The notes beneath the pieces are model-generated. The model was not told the DNA's origin. It did no database searches and saw only the letters and a program-made list of their open reading frames with translations. From positions 248,001 to 312,000 of the forward strand of contig JAOZOU010000004.1 of assembly GCA_029933125.1 (NCBI GenBank): 64,000 nt of DNA, read 5' to 3'. Position 1 is the first letter of the stretch; each line of letters starts with the position of its first letter. The translations under genes were made by a program, and so were the position numbers. This document shows, in pieces, positions 4,942 to 53,213 of the stretch. Origin of the DNA: a bacterium. GTDB lineage: Bacteria; Arandabacterota; Arandabacteria; Arandabacterales; Arandabacteraceae.

Positions 4942-6357
4942 ATGGAGATCCGACAGGACATGAGGCAGCAGCAGCGTCAGGAGATGCGCCTTGTAATGAC
5001 ACCCAAGCTCCAGCAGGCAATCAAGCTTCTTCAGGTTCCTGCCCTAGAGCTCCAACAGATTCTCAAACATGAGCTCATCACCAATCCCATGTTGGAAGAG
5101 GCTGATGAGGAAGAAAGTGAGATTCAAGAAGTCCAAGAGGCTGAGAGTGGTGATGAAGGTGAATTCAAGGCTTCAGAGGTTGAGATCGACTGGGATCGCT
5201 ACCTTAAAGACGGATTTGAGATGGGGGGAAGGGCTACAGGTGAGGTGGAGGAACAGGAAGAGACCCTTGAAAGAGTTCCTGTAGCTAAGCCGAGTTTTGA
5301 AGAGTATCTGACTTCTCAGCTCAGACTTGCCACGAGTGACGAAGACAAGATAAGAATTGGTGAGTTCATTATTGGAAGTCTTGATTCAAATGGCTATCTG
5401 ACCATTAGTCCTGAGGATATAGCCAGGGCGCTTGGGGTTGAGGTGGAAAAAGTGGAAGAGGTGCTTGCGATAATAAGAACGTTTGATCCTCCTGGTATTG
5501 CTGCCCGTGATCTCAGGGAATGCCTTCTTATCCAGCTTGAGCAGGCTAGTCTTGCGGACGGCCTTGCCTACATGCTGGTGAGAGATCATCTTGATGATCT
5601 CCTTAAGAAGCGTTACGGTGAGATAGCGCGCAAACTCAAGAGGAGTGTAAAGGAAATTCAGAAGGCTGCGGATGTCATTGGTCGCTTTGACCCAAGGCCA
5701 GGTGCAAGATACTCTCAAGAGGAACCCCGCTACATTGTCCCCGACCTTATTGTTGAGAAGGTTGATGGCGATTACATCGTTGACATAAATGACAGGAATG
5801 TACCTCGCCTCAGAATCAATCGTGCCTACCGTGACATCCTCTCGAACGCCAAGTCACGCAGCAAGGAAGAACATGATTATGTTATTGATAAGCTCAACTC
5901 AGCTAGGTGGTTGCTTAATACCATTGAGCAAAGACGCCAGACGATGCTAAAAGTAATGCAGGCAATTCTTGAGGCACAGCGTGATTTCTTTGATAAGGGT
6001 GTCGAACACCTCAAGCCGCTGACCTTGCAGGAGATAGCGGAGCGAGTTGGTATACACGAGTCGACAGTTAGTCGTGTAACGAGCAACAAGTATGTTCAAA
6101 CCCCGCGAGGTGTTTTTGAGCTCAAGTTCTTCTTCTCGACAGGACTTAAGACCGATGACGGAGATGTTGCCTCATCGAGGCATATAAAGATACGAATAGC
6201 CGAGATGATTGAGAAAGAAGATAAGCACCATCCCCTCAGCGATCAGGAGATTGCAAGGAGATTGAAGCAAGAGGGCTTTCTGGTGGCTCGGCGAACTGTT
6301 GCCAAGTACCGGGATCAGCTTGGGATCTTGCCGGCTCGCATGAGGAAAGAATACTAG
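4942..6357 (+). CDS. rpoN: RNA polymerase sigma-54 factor
   Basis: A 471-residue sigma-54. Region I is the Gln/Leu-rich N-terminus (MRLVMTPKLQQAIKLLQVP, near residues 14-32) that contacts the activator. An acidic region II follows at about 50-115, then the core-binding domain, a helix-turn-helix and the C-terminal RpoN box ARRTVAKYR (about 449-458) that reads the -24 element. The protein requires an AAA+ activator; one is encoded at 48,973-52,014, and candidate -24/-12 promoters lie at 45,255 and 52,225. A GGAGG SD lies 9 bases before the ATG. Position after lptB matches the conserved lptB-rpoN-hpf synteny of proteobacteria. Confidence 0.97.
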   Translation: MEIRQDMRQQQRQEMRLVMTPKLQQAIKLLQVPALELQQILKHELITNPMLEEADEEESEIQEVQEAESGDEGEFKASEVEIDWDRYLKDGFEMGGRATGEVEEQEETLERVPVAKPSFEEYLTSQLRLATSDEDKIRIGEFIIGSLDSNGYLTISPEDIARALGVEVEKVEEVLAIIRTFDPPGIAARDLRECLLIQLEQASLADGLAYMLVRDHLDDLLKKRYGEIARKLKRSVKEIQKAADVIGRFDPRPGARYSQEEPRYIVPDLIVEKVDGDYIVDINDRNVPRLRINRAYRDILSNAKSRSKEEHDYVIDKLNSARWLLNTIEQRRQTMLKVMQAILEAQRDFFDKGVEHLKPLTLQEIAERVGIHESTVSRVTSNKYVQTPRGVFELKFFFSTGLKTDDGDVASSRHIKIRIAEMIEKEDKHHPLSDQEIARRLKQEGFLVARRTVAKYRDQLGILPARMRKEY

Positions 6358-38746: not shown

Positions 38747-40487
38747 TTGAGTGCTCCTCTCTGGCTTTCTTCAGTGTCACTCGAAACATTCGCCAGACAT
38801 AGAAGGCATAGCAGATTGCTGAGAGAGGTAGCAGCCACCCATTAAAGCTCGCTGCTCTCAGATTCGGAAGTGGCTTGATGAGGGGACCGTTTGCCACGAG
38901 CAAGAGTAGCAGAGATGAGAAGCAGGCTGTGATCAGCAAGCCCTTGAAGCGCTTTCCAGTCATGTGGTACAGCGTACCGGGCAGGAGAAGCCCAAAGATG
39001 ATGGTTAGCCACCTGCTTCGCCGTTCGAGCTCAAGAATTCTTTGGTTATATCGAAATTCCAATTCGCGATGCTCATGGTGGGCACTGGCGATCGTGGCAC
39101 AGGCCTTGCAAAGGAGTTGCTTGCCACGGCGTCTCGTTACCGGCAAGGGAATTGGTTCGTCACATATGTCGCAAGTCGCGGGTATGCGCAACCTGTAAGC
39201 CCCATAACCGAAGGCAAGGGCAACTACAACCAGAATTATAGAGCCCAGCGGTCCCGATTCCACTGGATGATAGGTCATTCTTAGATAGTCATTATCGGGG
39301 CTCAGGGCCAGCTGCCAAAGGACACGAGTCTGCAAGTTCATGGGGACAGGCCCAGGTTCTTGAGCAGTCAACAGTGTACGTATAGTGCCGAAGTCAAGGG
39401 CTGATGCCTTTGCTAGCTCCTCCTCTGCGAGATCATATTCAAGAAGTGCATTGAGGACCTGAGAATAGTTGTAGTGAACGATGGCGGCTCGCTGTCCATA
39501 CTTAAGAGCTGTTTCAAACATGCGCTTAGCTTGCTTGAGGTTTCCAAGTTCGTAATAGGCCACGCCAATGTTATTGAACACAGCTGCATTGGACGGACTG
39601 AACTTTGTAACCAGATTGAAATGGTCGATGGCTTGGCGATATTGCTTGGATTTAAGGCTAAGGAGGCCTGTTATGAACTGTCCGACGGGATCGAATTTCT
39701 TTTGGGATCTGTTGGTTGCGTAAGCTCTTACGAGCCATGTCTTGTCAACCTTGTCAGCGAGGGATGCGAGGCGTACTGTAGAATGGGGCAGCTGTGTCGA
39801 AAGTATCCTGCCCGTCAAAGTGAGAACACCTCCGATGAGCAAGAGATAGACTGCAAACACAACTATAATGCGTCTTTCCCCGGAGCCAGCAAATCTCCAG
39901 ACGCCTGCTGCACCGATTACACATATCCACGTCAACATAACAACAGGGCCACGGCTTGAGGTGACGAGGATGAGACCTGCAACGAGTGCATACATTACTG
40001 CCTTGCCATTTTTCCCCAGGAGCCATTCAGGCAAGCTGATCTGAAGCGAAGCCCAAATGAGTCGGGCATATCGGAGAAGTATAAAGACGATTGCGATGTA
40101 GATAGCAACACTGACTGCAATAACACCTACTGCAACTGTGTTTGATAACAAAACTGCCTGATAGAAGAAGTTCGAGAAAAGAAGCTTTACCCCTATCGCA
40201 AATTCTAGGAATGCATCCATTATCGATCTTCTGGCATAGACCTGAGCGAGAGCAAAATGGGGTTCGGGTGCATCCCGCATGTAGGTTGAAGCCTCAAGAT
40301 AGCTTTTGATAGCTCCCTCAACGTCACCTTGCTCAAGTTGCCTGTCACCCTTCCAGAGACTGACCTTAGCCTCAAGAAGCGGACTCGAATGCATCTTGTT
40401 TTCCTGGAGCGGTTGGCCCCAGATAGGCATAGCAAACCCCAGAAAGACGGCAATGCTAAGTGCAAGACTTTTGGCGGTCAAGCTCAT
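38739..40487 (-). CDS. TPR membrane protein with zinc-ribbon-like motif
   Basis: A 582-residue protein with an N-terminal signal (LALSIAVFLGFAMPIWGQP). Residues about 45-90 form one TPR-like repeat. About four membrane helices at 115-240 follow, then a TPR block at 280-380 (VFNNIGVAYYELGNLKQAKRMFETALKYG), a helix near 410-430, and a CxxC...CxxC module at about 435-465 (CDICDEP, then LLCKAC). A terminal set of hydrophobic helices follows. The module could bind zinc. I know no defined function; TPRs suggest scaffolding at the membrane. Its partner is the overlapping DUF4388 gene. The upstream divergent gap holds a strong palindrome (40,575-40,600). Confidence 0.7.
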   Translation of the reverse strand: MSLTAKSLALSIAVFLGFAMPIWGQPLQENKMHSSPLLEAKVSLWKGDRQLEQGDVEGAIKSYLEASTYMRDAPEPHFALAQVYARRSIMDAFLEFAIGVKLLFSNFFYQAVLLSNTVAVGVIAVSVAIYIAIVFILLRYARLIWASLQISLPEWLLGKNGKAVMYALVAGLILVTSSRGPVVMLTWICVIGAAGVWRFAGSGERRIIVVFAVYLLLIGGVLTLTGRILSTQLPHSTVRLASLADKVDKTWLVRAYATNRSQKKFDPVGQFITGLLSLKSKQYRQAIDHFNLVTKFSPSNAAVFNNIGVAYYELGNLKQAKRMFETALKYGQRAAIVHYNYSQVLNALLEYDLAEEELAKASALDFGTIRTLLTAQEPGPVPMNLQTRVLWQLALSPDNDYLRMTYHPVESGPLGSIILVVVALAFGYGAYRLRIPATCDICDEPIPLPVTRRRGKQLLCKACATIASAHHEHRELEFRYNQRILELERRSRWLTIIFGLLLPGTLYHMTGKRFKGLLITACFSSLLLLLVANGPLIKPLPNLRAASFNGWLLPLSAICYAFYVWRMFRVTLKKAREEHSNA

Positions 40488-48972: not shown

Positions 48973-51900
48973 ATGGAAGATCCATGTGGTGGGCCTGGCG
49001 AGCGAGAAGACGAAGATCCCAAGCCTGAAAACATTCGTTCTTCAACAGAAGACCTAGGCAATTTCTGTCTTGCCACTGGCGAGTTTAGTACGGCCATAGA
49101 GTATTTCACCCGAGTTCTTTGCACCTGCAATGCTGATGCCTCCCCATCGAAGAAAGCCTCCCTCCTCAGGAAGTTGGCCATCTGTTATTGCAAGATGGGC
49201 AAGTGCGATCATGCTCTTGAGCTTCTTGACAAGGCTTTTGCTCTTGTTGCTGACGGCGAAGATCCATTCGAACTGGCACGCATAATAGGGGAGCGGGGCT
49301 GGGTGCACTTCAAACGTGGTGAGTATGAGCTCTCTGAAGCAGACTTGCAAGCCGGTTTGGATATCCTCATCGGTGAAGAAAGAGGGAAGGTGATTGGTCG
49401 CTTCTACAACCGTCTGGGTGGTGTCTTTTACCGCAGGGGTGAGATCGATAAGGCTATGGATTTCTACCGAGCAGCTCTGGGTGTAGCGAGATCGCTTGAC
49501 GAACGTGAGCTTGTCGGTGTGTGCCTCAATAATCTGGGTCTAGTCTGCAAGAGCCAGGGTCGCTGGAACGAGGCAAAGGCATTCTTCGAGGATGCCCTGG
49601 CGATTGCTGAGGAAGTAGGGCAGCATTTTGAGAAGGGAACAAGACTCAACAATCTCGGTATTGTTTATTCCAAGCTGGGTGATTGGAAGAAGGCATATCG
49701 CTACTGGAGTGAGGCTCTCAACATTTTCGTCAGCATAGGTAATCGCTGGGAACTCGTCTTGGTTTATATAGCACTCGGCAACTATTATCTCACCTATCGC
49801 GATTTTGACCGTGCAGAGGAGTACTATGTGCGGGCTATGAGGGAAAGTTCCGACAACGGGGATGCGCGTACTGCTGCCTTGAGCTTCGAGGCTATGGGCG
49901 ATCTTCATCAGGCATGTGGGAGATTTGACTCGGCTCTAAGGTGCTACCATGAGGCGCTGGAGATAGCGGCGGAGATAGCCCCAACGAGCGATATTGTTGC
50001 CGAAGTGAAAAGACGTCTGGCCGACCTCGAAGTCAAGCGAGGTAATTACAAGGAAGCCCTCGATCTGAGTAAGCAGGCCGTTGAGACGTCGAGTAAAATC
50101 GGTGATGTTTTCGAGCACGCGTGTGCGATTCGGTCTCGCTCGTGTGCTTTGCATTACCTTGGTGAGTGGGAGCAGGCAAGAAATGGTTTCGAGAAGGCAA
50201 TTGATATTTTCTCGAGCCTTGGCAGTAAAAAGGAGCTTGCGACTACATATCTCATGGCAGGCGAGCTCATGCTATCTGAGGATGCTCACAGAAAGCTGGC
50301 TGCATCGTATCTTTCCTTGGCTGCCTCCCTCTTTGATGAGATGGGAATGACCTACGAAGCAGGCCTCGCTTCGCTGGGGCTTGGCAAGATCGCAGCGGCA
50401 AAAGGTGATGTTGAGTTCTGCTATGAGCTTCTTGATAGGGTTGCCAATGCGCTTGACGAACAAGCGCCCGAGGAGCTTCGTGAGATGATTCGGAGGATAG
50501 GGCTTGAGGCCGATGAAAGCGTTGCAAGGCTATCGGTAAGCGATTCAAACGATCTGGCAAGCTTCAATGAGATTGTTGGCAAGATTCTGGCAACCCATGG
50601 CGACGGTGAGAGAATGCAACTAGTGCTAAACGGTTGTCTCGATCGGACAGTTGCGGAGCGAGGCGCTATACTTGTGGGGACTCGTGACCATCTGGAGGCA
50701 GTTGCAAGCTCCAATTTCGAGAGCCAGGATATCGAAACAATCGGGGTACTGGTCAGGCGTCTTGCTGAAGCATCTGGCTCTTCACTGAGACCGATTGTGA
50801 CCACTTGCCTCAAGGATGACATGCGCTTTGGCTTTAGCGCCCAGAATGGTGTCCCGGAGCGCGCAGCTCTATGTGTCCCCTTAAAAATCAGCGACAGCGA
50901 GTATGCTTTCATTTATCTTGATTCACCATCCAAGAGTGTTTTTGGAAAATCACAGGTTGAATTCGTGGTAGCAATGGCTGGCATCCTCAAGACGGTGATA
51001 TCCGAGGCTAAACTTGGAAGGTACGTTGAGGAAACTCGGTATCTAAGAAGCAAGCTCAAGGACAGCAAGCGCATAGGTGGCCTCATCACTCAGAATCGTA
51101 AGATGCTCGAGATAGTAGACGCTATTCAATTCCTTTGTCGTACATCGACGACTGTGCTGATTGAAGGTGAGACGGGTACAGGGAAGGAGATGTTGGCAAG
51201 GGCTATCCACATGTGTGGCGACAGGAAGCGAAAGCCATTTGTAACGATCGATTGTTCAGCGCTTGCAAACGATATAATCGAGAGCGAGCTCTTCGGTCAT
51301 GTCAAGGGTGCCTTCACTGATGCCAAGGCGGCCAAGAAGGGCTTGTTTGAGGAGGCACATGGAGGGACGGTCTTCCTTGACGAGATTGATAAGACATCTC
51401 AGAAGTTCCAGCAGCGACTCCTGCAGGTGGTTGACAAGCGAGAGTTCAAACCAGTGGGATCGACAACCTCACGGAGAGTTGACTTCCGCCTGATATGTGC
51501 AACCAATAGGGACCTGGCAGAGCAAGTGCGGACAGGTCATTTCCTTGAGGATCTCTATTACAGATTGAAGGTGATCTCTCTTAAGATTCCGCCGCTGAGG
51601 GAAAGACGGGATGATATACCCCTTCTAGCCGAACACTTTCTCGAAGTTTACAATGAACGTCTTGGTAAGTCTGTGGTCGGTTTCACCTCAGGAGCAATGG
51701 ATCTCCTCGTAAGCTATTATTGGCCTGGTAACGTAAGGCAGCTGGAGCATGAAATCGAACGAGCTGTCACTTTCTCTAGAGATGGTGACCTCATTGTTCC
51801 AGATCTCTTTTCCGAAGAGGTGAGGGGGTGGAACATGCCCCTTGGGGAGACCAAGGTGAAGCCCATAGCCCAGGCTGTAGAGGAGGTCGAGAAAGCCCTA

Positions 51901-52014
51901 ATAAGGGAGGCTATGAGAAGATTTGGTGGAAATAAAACTAAGGTCGCAAAGAGCCTCGGCCTGAGCCGAAGGGGACTCCTCAACAAGCTTCATCGTTACC
52001 GCATAAAGGCGTAA
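48973..52014 (+). CDS. TPR-GAF-AAA+-Fis sigma-54-dependent transcriptional activator
   Basis: A 1,013-residue enhancer-binding protein. Residues about 20-490 hold around 10-11 tetratricopeptide repeats, for example GVCLNNLGLVCKSQGRWNEAKAFFEDAL. A GAF domain lies at about 530-690. The AAA+ core has Walker A GETGTGKE (732-739), the sigma-54-contact loop GAFTDA (779-784) and Walker B FLDEID (Asp803). An HTH of the Fis type closes the protein (GGNKTKVAKSLGLSRRGLLNKLHRYRI). The usual loop is GAFTGA; the fifth residue here is Asp783. The TPR region replaces the receiver or kinase input of better-known regulators. It immediately precedes a sigma-70-family gene with a sigma-54 promoter. Confidence 0.93.
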   Translation: MEDPCGGPGEREDEDPKPENIRSSTEDLGNFCLATGEFSTAIEYFTRVLCTCNADASPSKKASLLRKLAICYCKMGKCDHALELLDKAFALVADGEDPFELARIIGERGWVHFKRGEYELSEADLQAGLDILIGEERGKVIGRFYNRLGGVFYRRGEIDKAMDFYRAALGVARSLDERELVGVCLNNLGLVCKSQGRWNEAKAFFEDALAIAEEVGQHFEKGTRLNNLGIVYSKLGDWKKAYRYWSEALNIFVSIGNRWELVLVYIALGNYYLTYRDFDRAEEYYVRAMRESSDNGDARTAALSFEAMGDLHQACGRFDSALRCYHEALEIAAEIAPTSDIVAEVKRRLADLEVKRGNYKEALDLSKQAVETSSKIGDVFEHACAIRSRSCALHYLGEWEQARNGFEKAIDIFSSLGSKKELATTYLMAGELMLSEDAHRKLAASYLSLAASLFDEMGMTYEAGLASLGLGKIAAAKGDVEFCYELLDRVANALDEQAPEELREMIRRIGLEADESVARLSVSDSNDLASFNEIVGKILATHGDGERMQLVLNGCLDRTVAERGAILVGTRDHLEAVASSNFESQDIETIGVLVRRLAEASGSSLRPIVTTCLKDDMRFGFSAQNGVPERAALCVPLKISDSEYAFIYLDSPSKSVFGKSQVEFVVAMAGILKTVISEAKLGRYVEETRYLRSKLKDSKRIGGLITQNRKMLEIVDAIQFLCRTSTTVLIEGETGTGKEMLARAIHMCGDRKRKPFVTIDCSALANDIIESELFGHVKGAFTDAKAAKKGLFEEAHGGTVFLDEIDKTSQKFQQRLLQVVDKREFKPVGSTTSRRVDFRLICATNRDLAEQVRTGHFLEDLYYRLKVISLKIPPLRERRDDIPLLAEHFLEVYNERLGKSVVGFTSGAMDLLVSYYWPGNVRQLEHEIERAVTFSRDGDLIVPDLFSEEVRGWNMPLGETKVKPIAQAVEEVEKALIREAMRRFGGNKTKVAKSLGLSRRGLLNKLHRYRIKA

Positions 52015-52147
52015 ACTGCCTTCACGTTGGACTGTTACCTTGTTTACCACTGTAATCGTTTGCAACATAAAGAGTTAGCGTATATCGAGATCCACTGTGA
52101 ACCTTCTTCACGTTTAAACCCTGCCCTTGGCCGTTATCGGTTGCCTC

Positions 52148-52167
52148 ACAAGAATCATGAATCTTGT
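52148..52167. promoter_or_regulatory. Candidate enhancer (UAS) palindrome
   Basis: ACAAGA-A-TCATGA-A-TCTTGT is a 20-bp palindrome, with mismatch only at two symmetric A/A positions. Its centre is about 94 bases upstream of the expected start point of the sigma-54 promoter at 52,225, a normal distance for an activator binding site. The adjacent gene encodes such an activator. Confidence 0.5.
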
Positions 52168-52224
52168 AATACGTTGTGATCCAATAAGTTAATCTGGCAG
52201 GAAACGATTCAACTTTGGGGCTTT

Positions 52225-52240
52225 CGGCACGATGATTGCA
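52225..52240 (+). promoter_or_regulatory. Sigma-54 (-24/-12) promoter of the sigma factor gene
   Basis: CGGCACG-ATGA-TTGCA matches TGGCACG-N4-TTGCA at every defined base except the first. GG and GC are exactly 10 bases apart. The predicted start point is near 52,252, about 45 bases before the ATG at 52296. A TTG at 52236 that could extend the coding frame lies inside this element. Confidence 0.75.
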
Positions 52241-52295
52241 TTTTGCAAGGAGTGAGAAGCCTCTCGTCCAGAGGCAGTGTCGACAGGACCTGGAG

Positions 52296-53213
52296 ATGTG
52301 GTGCCAAGACCCGATGGAAGACAACACGCAAGCTGATTCCGTCGCATATTCGCGTTCGATCGAGAGGGGCGCTTCTGGGCAATCCTCGGAGGGTGATCTT
52401 GCAGCTTATATGCGAGCGATCAGTCGTATCCCTTTGCTCACCAAGCAGCAGGAACGCCAGCTTGCTCAACGGGTTCGCCGCGGGGACGCTAAGGCTAAGG
52501 AGCAAATGATCCTGGCAAACCTGAGGTTAGTAGTTTCGATAGCTCGGAAGTATCAAGGGATGGGGTTACCCCTTGCAGATCTCATTAGTGAGGGCAACGT
52601 AGGTCTCATGAAGGCAGTGGAGAGGTTTAGACACGAAAAGGGATTCAGATTCAGCACCTACGCTTCAAAGTGGATACGTCAAGCCATCACCAAGACACTT
52701 GCTAATCATGGCAGGACGGTTAGACTACCGGCAAATGTACTCGAGATGCTTAGGCGAGCTCGTGATGTTGAGGACGAATCTTTGCGCAGCCATGGCTCCG
52801 AAGCCAATGATCTCGAAATTTGTGACAGGCTGAGGGTTTCACGGAGAAGGTATGCACAGGTCGCCAATGCTTCGGTTACCTTCTCACTTGATTCCCCATA
52901 TGCTCTCGATAGCGATCTCAATCTTCATGATGTGCTTCCTGATACATTGCACAAGGCACCTGATGAAGCTGCATTTAGCAGGATAAATGCTCACACGCTT
53001 GAGTCTCTGTTGGCGCATCTTTCTCGGCGCGAACGAAGCATACTCTCATACAGATTTGGTCTTGAAGATGGAACAAAACGGTCGCTCGCTGAAACAGGCA
53101 AGATTGTTGGAATAACACGTGAGCGTATCCGCCAAATTGAAAAGCGAGCGATTGAGAAAATGAGGAAGGCGCTTCGCAAACGACGCATGCAGAAGCTCGT
53201 CAAAGGTGGCTAA
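52296..53213 (+). CDS. RNA polymerase sigma factor, sigma-70 family group 2 (RpoD/RpoS-like)
   Basis: A 305-residue sigma factor without region 1.1. Region 1.2 is GDLAAYMRAISRIPLLTKQQERQLA. Region 2 is NLRLVVSIARKYQGMGLPLADLISEGNVGLMKAVERF with the 2.3/2.4 part RFSTYASKWIRQAITKTL. Region 3 is at 140-200, and region 4.2 is TRERIRQIEKRAIEKMRKAL at the end. The completeness of regions 2-4 and small size indicate a group-2 alternative sigma, such as RpoS or a stationary/stress sigma. Start ATG 52296 lies about 45 bases after the predicted sigma-54 start point; ATG 52314 is also possible. The sigma-54 promoter suggests RpoN-dependent expression. Confidence 0.9.
   Translation: MWCQDPMEDNTQADSVAYSRSIERGASGQSSEGDLAAYMRAISRIPLLTKQQERQLAQRVRRGDAKAKEQMILANLRLVVSIARKYQGMGLPLADLISEGNVGLMKAVERFRHEKGFRFSTYASKWIRQAITKTLANHGRTVRLPANVLEMLRRARDVEDESLRSHGSEANDLEICDRLRVSRRRYAQVANASVTFSLDSPYALDSDLNLHDVLPDTLHKAPDEAAFSRINAHTLESLLAHLSRRERSILSYRFGLEDGTKRSLAETGKIVGITRERIRQIEKRAIEKMRKALRKRRMQKLVKGG

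Follow-up and report, generated by a model that had tools for sequence, protein, structure and literature searches.

A putative TPR-GAF activator and sigma-54 switch for a sigma-70-family gene in uncultured sediment bacteria

A 64,000-nt stretch of an Arandabacterota genome (contig JAOZOU010000004.1 of assembly GCA_029933125.1, positions 248,001 to 312,000; hereafter the window) carries, on one strand and separated by 281 bp, the gene of a sigma-54 activator and the gene of a group-2-like sigma-70-family factor, which raises the question of what turns the sigma gene on. The comparisons presented here make it highly probable that these genes form a dedicated two-step sigma switch, where an activator with TPR-GAF input and sigma-54 would together turn on the sigma-70-family gene. 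The genes and the promoter are positioned as follows.
48973..52014, + strand: sigma-54 activator, a bacterial enhancer-binding protein (bEBP) with the order TPR-GAF-AAA+-Fis, 1013 aa (open reading frame, Pfam, orthologues, AlphaFold2 model)
52225..52240, + strand: sigma-54 -24/-12 promoter element CGGCACGATGATTGCA (consensus match, conservation)
52251, + strand: predicted transcription start, 12 bases past the C of the -12 GC (from the position of the element)
52296..53213, + strand: sigma-70-family (group-2-like) factor, 305 aa, with Lys at the sigma-70 W433 position (Pfam, homology, clade)
4942..6357, + strand: rpoN, encoding sigma-54 (RpoN box ARRTVAKYR at 6286; PF04552)

The promoter was scored against TGGCACG-N4-TTGCW, the consensus context of the sigma-54 core, which has 12 defined bases. 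The element CGGCACGATGATTGCA matches 11 of these 12 with the exact GG-N10-GC spacing; the original prediction had the position and the spacing right, but its score of 15/16 counted the four N positions as matches. It had also pointed to rpoN in the window, which is present, but about 46 kb away, a distance that implies no linkage. The rpoN gene is single copy in the window genome (one PF04552 match) and was found in all 19 genomes tested. Other sigma-54-like elements in the window, with 10-11 of 12 bases matching, are located at 39095, 16734, 45255 (minus strand), 40585 (minus strand) and 3431 (minus strand).

The promoter's conservation was examined in relatives from three GTDB phylum-level groups, comprising 20 genomes (8 in the window group, 7 in the G065 group and 5 in the G060 group), which are metagenome-assembled genomes (MAGs) and mostly fragmentary. 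Gong et al. 2022 (PMC9727166) assign two of the named relatives, LQ108M_Bin_12 and M3-44_Bin_119, to Orphanbacterota, and under their classification two of the three groups could belong to a single phylum. An element of at least 9/12 with GG-N10-GC, no more than 450 bp upstream, was sought before 18 whole sigma orthologues and before 35 paralogous sigma genes with upstream sequence, including RpoD. It is found upstream of 18/18 orthologues, versus 1/35 paralogues from the same genomes, and the promoter label changes only once on the sigma tree, compared to a mean of 16 changes for shuffled labels. Further, the activator and sigma genes are neighbours in G002-G007, L056, L058, L060, G070 and G071; 13 of 13 gaps hold a GG-N10-GC element that scores at least 9/12, where dinucleotide shuffles give 1.1. 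The absence of the element from relatives that keep the pair had been named as the observation that would speak against the cascade; instead, it is present in every gap and is also kept where the pair has been split. In particular, the sigma gene of the G065 group lies behind a Bat operon, with the activator orthologue 16-61 kb off or on another contig, and both the element and the upstream palindromes described below remain at the sigma gene, not at the activator. In L057 and L061, the upstream genes belong to the Bat operon and the activator sits elsewhere; a split or frameshifted activator in L057, L059 and L061, suggested by open reading frame lengths, was rejected, as the activator has no match there.

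The split pairs bear directly on the alternative that a constitutive sigma-70 promoter, or read-through out of the activator gene, accounts for most expression of the sigma gene, with the sigma-54 promoter being auxiliary. In its favour, the two genes share a strand and are only 281 bp apart in the window, and group-2 sigma genes often have several promoters. However, the sigma-54 promoter is retained even behind unrelated upstream genes, so that read-through cannot account for its conservation, and this explanation is unlikely.

The proposed switch also calls for enhancer sites, and palindromes with the consensus GTGAA-N5-TTCAC, scored over 10 bases, are located upstream of the element.
52011..52025, no strand assigned: enhancer-like palindrome 1 GTAAACTGCCTTCAC, 9/10, overlapping the activator stop codon; at -207 to -218 from the element in relatives
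52034..52048, no strand assigned: weak enhancer-like half-site 2 GTTACCTTGTTTACC, 6/10; better copies at -183 to -194 in relatives
52097..52111, no strand assigned: enhancer-like palindrome 3 GTGAACCTTCTTCAC, an exact match

These enhancer-like palindromes would be the sites expected for a sigma-54 activator. Within the window, 52011 and 52097 are the only sites scoring at least 9/10. Across the 13 gaps, 12 contain a palindrome of at least 8/10 (shuffle mean 1.06) and 6 contain an exact one (0.003). Their positions are fixed at about -216, -192 and -128 from the element, and the last two are 63-64 bp apart in all three groups, except in G007. No other chromosomal targets were found; the exact copies elsewhere in G000-G007 are in, or at the edge of, open reading frames without a well-placed -24/-12, and the sigma gene therefore seems to be the dedicated target. 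The copy between mnmE and mnmG, GTGAACATGTTTCAC (L079, L081 at 1501), looks like part of a parS site.

All five genomes of the G060 group (L214, L058, L060, L056 and L210) also have a palindrome no more than about 85 bp before the activator gene, two of these palindromes being exact, compared to 0 of 10 activator genes outside this group. An autoregulatory sigma-54 promoter before the activator gene was not found, the only match of at least 9/12 being a weak one in L056. A palindrome at this position is the pattern expected of autoregulation by the activator, and these copies, the best sequence evidence on the point, suggest that the activator binds the palindrome.

The activator itself has the domains needed for such a role.
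49027..50454, + strand: TPR array of about 12 helical hairpins, residues 19-494 (Pfam, AlphaFold2 model)
50554..50946, + strand: GAF domain, residues 528-658 (Pfam matches in orthologues, AlphaFold2 model)
51082..51825, + strand: AAA+ sigma-54 interaction domain and lid, with loop GAFTDA (PF00158, PF25601, Foldseek)
51865..52005, + strand: Fis-type helix-turn-helix (HTH) with recognition helix SRRGLLNK (PF02954)

A 1013-residue TPR-GAF-AAA-Fis activator encoded directly upstream of a group-2 sigma gene was part of the original prediction, and Pfam, orthologues and the AlphaFold2 model agree with it. The Pfam matches of the window protein are TPR_12 and others, Sigma54_activat at 704-870 (PF00158, 214 bits), AAA_lid_14 and HTH_8 at 969-1009; the listed matches include no receiver, consistent with the TPR and GAF input that had been proposed in its place. 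GAF is only weakly recognizable in the window protein and does not figure among its listed matches; in orthologues, GAF_2 is matched in 9/10 and GAF in 7/10. The AlphaFold2 model (mean pLDDT 80.7) has about 24 TPR helices spanning residues 19-494, an alpha/beta domain resembling GAF (528-658), the AAA+ domain and an HTH at 965-1008, and its top structural matches by Foldseek are sigma-54 activators, for example NtrX and NtrC1. The TPR and GAF domains would receive the signal. Ten aligned orthologues have the Walker motifs GETGTGKE and GGTVFLDEID together with a GAFTGA-type loop, as in bEBPs; the loop reads GAFTDA (GSFTDA in one), which is among the loop variants expected to stay functional in Desulfovibrio vulgaris (PMC4641369). 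SRRG[LF]LNK is found in the HTH of 10/10 aligned orthologues. With HTH_8 in the activator and the upstream palindromes conserved, binding of one to the other is putative. A direct protein scan of the genome contigs with the activator as query gave no match. More long TPR/AAA+ activators, with 29-34% identity across most of the protein, are encoded at G000:C76:340023-342980 and on G007:C28 and C123, which indicates that TPR-input sigma-54 activators form a family in these bacteria.

Such a number of activators gives some room to a second alternative, that the promoter is sigma-54-dependent but the sigma gene is driven by another activator, the TPR-GAF activator having its targets elsewhere. The window genome (G000) encodes about 17 full AAA+ sigma-54 activator domains, and adjacency alone is weak evidence. 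However, genomes from two phyla have the two genes side by side and four further genomes have them 16-61 kb apart, one phylum has palindromes before the activator gene as well, and an activator orthologue, whole or in fragments, is present in every genome with a sigma orthologue; its fragments include a likely orthologue in two pieces at contig ends in G063, and in the same-genus genome G001 contig breaks fall inside both genes. Control by another activator is accordingly quite improbable. It is more improbable still that the palindromes are repressor operators instead of enhancer sites. Taken alone, they would fit either an activator or a repressor, and the G060-group copies before the activator gene have no well-placed -24/-12; in contrast, enhancers are usually arranged in this way, as several constantly spaced sites over 100 bp upstream of a -24/-12, as for HrpS at hrpL (PMC8657755). 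Finally, YGGCACGNNNNTTGCW with no more than one mismatch has 97 sites in the 3.2-Mb genome, versus 16 for the reversed pattern (a sixfold enrichment, with the window element among the 6 zero-mismatch sites), but a chance match is refuted on present data by the 18/18 orthologues versus 1/35 paralogues, and its probability is negligible.

The sigma factor has Pfam regions 1.2, 2 and 4. Its regions 1.2 to 4 are near those of the primary sigma, region 1.1 is missing, and a separate RpoD-size gene (625 aa) lies on another contig of the window genome, which fits group 2, whose members are dispensable for growth and whose promoters resemble RpoD promoters. The longest open reading frame begins at TTG 52236, within the promoter element, and this had been taken as the start; the homologous N-termini (MWCQDPMEDN in the window, MLRQDLIDEG in L053) align instead at ATG 52296, which is therefore the assigned start codon. 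A hairpin with the form ACCC(A)-GGA loop-(T)GGGT, resembling a CsrA site, is located directly before the sigma start codon in L051, L052, L062 and L053; csrA was found in 6 of 7 genomes tested, but not in G004, and the window's sigma leader has no such hairpin.

The 18 sigma orthologues form one clade with support of 100/98 in a maximum-likelihood tree. Beyond the three groups, a scan of 386 genomes from about 328 genera with the family model gave no sigma over 340 bits, where whole orthologues score at least 410. The W433 position is Lys in 18/18 clade members (window region 2.4 YASKWIRQ) and Trp in all paralogues compared, while the clade keeps TRERIRQ in region 4.2 and the equivalents of Q437 and T440. 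W433 acts as a wedge and keeps the upstream edge of the bubble in place; those alternative sigmas that are without it are thought to be less ready to melt promoters and more selective (PMC4593229). It is a fair inference from this substitution that the clade sigma uses a more stringent promoter class, and its use of the -10 may also differ.

The dedicated switch would then operate as follows. Sigma-54 polymerase would rest closed at 52225-52240. Signalled through its TPR-GAF part, the activator would bind two or three of the palindromes, about 113-215 bp upstream of the element, oligomerise, reach the sigma-54 RNA polymerase by looping and open the sigma promoter with ATP. The sigma transcript would begin near 52251, provided that the sigma-54 promoter works as drawn, and the new sigma would redirect RNA polymerase to its own promoters, a presumably separate regulon. 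That the activator and RpoN switch on the sigma gene, as originally proposed, is well supported by the comparative counts and by the enhancer-like palindromes at conserved spacing.

Several points weigh against this switch. The palindromes score only 7/10 in L137, L164 and L166, and the elements in L013 (GGGTATGGAAATTGCA) and L015 (GGGCACGGATTCTGCG, with several candidates) are weak. The link between activator and palindrome is drawn from co-occurrence, the copies in one phylum and the conserved HTH. A sigma-70 promoter may also be present in the gap. Moreover, the named relatives are uncultured MAGs.

The best-known sigma-54 to sigma-70 cascades come from a small number of pathogens and from flagellar systems. 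The present comparison follows one through uncultured sediment bacteria of three phylum-level lineages by its promoter, its enhancer-like sites and both proteins, despite gene separation; it yields a regulatory link suited to tests in a heterologous host, together with a predicted binding site, and points towards the master regulon of lineages without a genetic system. More tentatively, a one-component, TPR-sensed, enhancer-driven sigma-54 switch could be the ancestral control of the Trp433-to-Lys sigma clade in several FCB-region candidate phyla, filling the place that RpoS or sigma-B has elsewhere, with a promoter class that is stringent and non-standard, although this broader proposal is doubtful.

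Similar wiring is found elsewhere. Near-perfect -24/-12 elements, each followed by a Shine-Dalgarno sequence and the ATG of a group-2-type sigma gene, are located at 5907-5922 of L063 (Bullifex porci; TGGCACGTTTTTTGCT) and at 5906-5921 of L071 (a Spirochaetales MAG; TGGCACGCTATCTGCT). They indicate that spirochaetes other than Borrelia probably have a separate cascade from sigma-54 to a sigma-70-family factor and, as these sigma genes are unrelated to the clade, suggest that sigma-54-to-sigma wiring arose more than once. Sigma-54-like elements also occur just before other sigma-70-family genes in the unrelated genomes G024 and G103 (TGGCACACTTTTTGCA, L030 1343, reverse complement; AGGCACAAATTTTGCA, L198 150).

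The cascade logic is already known; what is new is the TPR-GAF input, the sigma clade with Lys for Trp433 and the depth of conservation. In open-licence full texts, no description was found of a sigma gene under the control of a TPR-GAF activator, in line with the earlier impression that the arrangement was undescribed, and the word TPR is absent from Francke 2011. As in MalT-type one-component regulators, the TPR array is the likely sensor, and the window TPRs match a MalT-like TPR profile. MalT-type and other TPR-input one-component regulators are not known to be sigma-54 activators, whereas the output here is AAA+ and Fis. The order GAF, AAA+, Fis is that of NifA/NorR-type activators, which differ in having neither the TPR array of about 480 residues before the GAF domain nor a sigma gene as the target; in NorR, the GAF domain represses its own AAA+ domain (PMC2941729).

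The original prediction likened the locus to Rrp2-RpoN-RpoS of Borrelia burgdorferi, where an NtrC-family activator and sigma-54 switch on one sigma-70-family gene (PMC11109971, PMC4014564). The cascade logic is shared, and the locus would work alike; however, Rrp2 is a response regulator with receiver input, and the window activator, whose listed Pfam matches include no receiver, has TPR-GAF input and conserved enhancer-like sites and falls outside the Rrp2 pathway proper. Rrp2 has been reported to need no enhancer for its action (Blevins 2009, cited in PMC11109971), which makes the comparison a loose one. The closer architectural match is HrpS(/HrpR)-RpoN-HrpL of Erwinia and Pseudomonas syringae, which likewise combines a dedicated activator, an upstream palindrome and a sigma-54 promoter before a sigma gene. 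HrpS and HrpR are not known to have a sensory domain, and HrpL is an extracytoplasmic function (ECF) sigma factor. In contrast, the locus described here has a TPR-GAF sensory part, a non-ECF sigma with region 1.2 and a different DNA site, which sets it outside the HrpS-HrpL system: Erwinia HrpS recognizes TGCAA-N4-TTGCA at -138/-125 of hrpL, upstream of a GG-N10-TGC promoter (PMC8657755), while the activator here would recognize GTGAA-N5-TTCAC.

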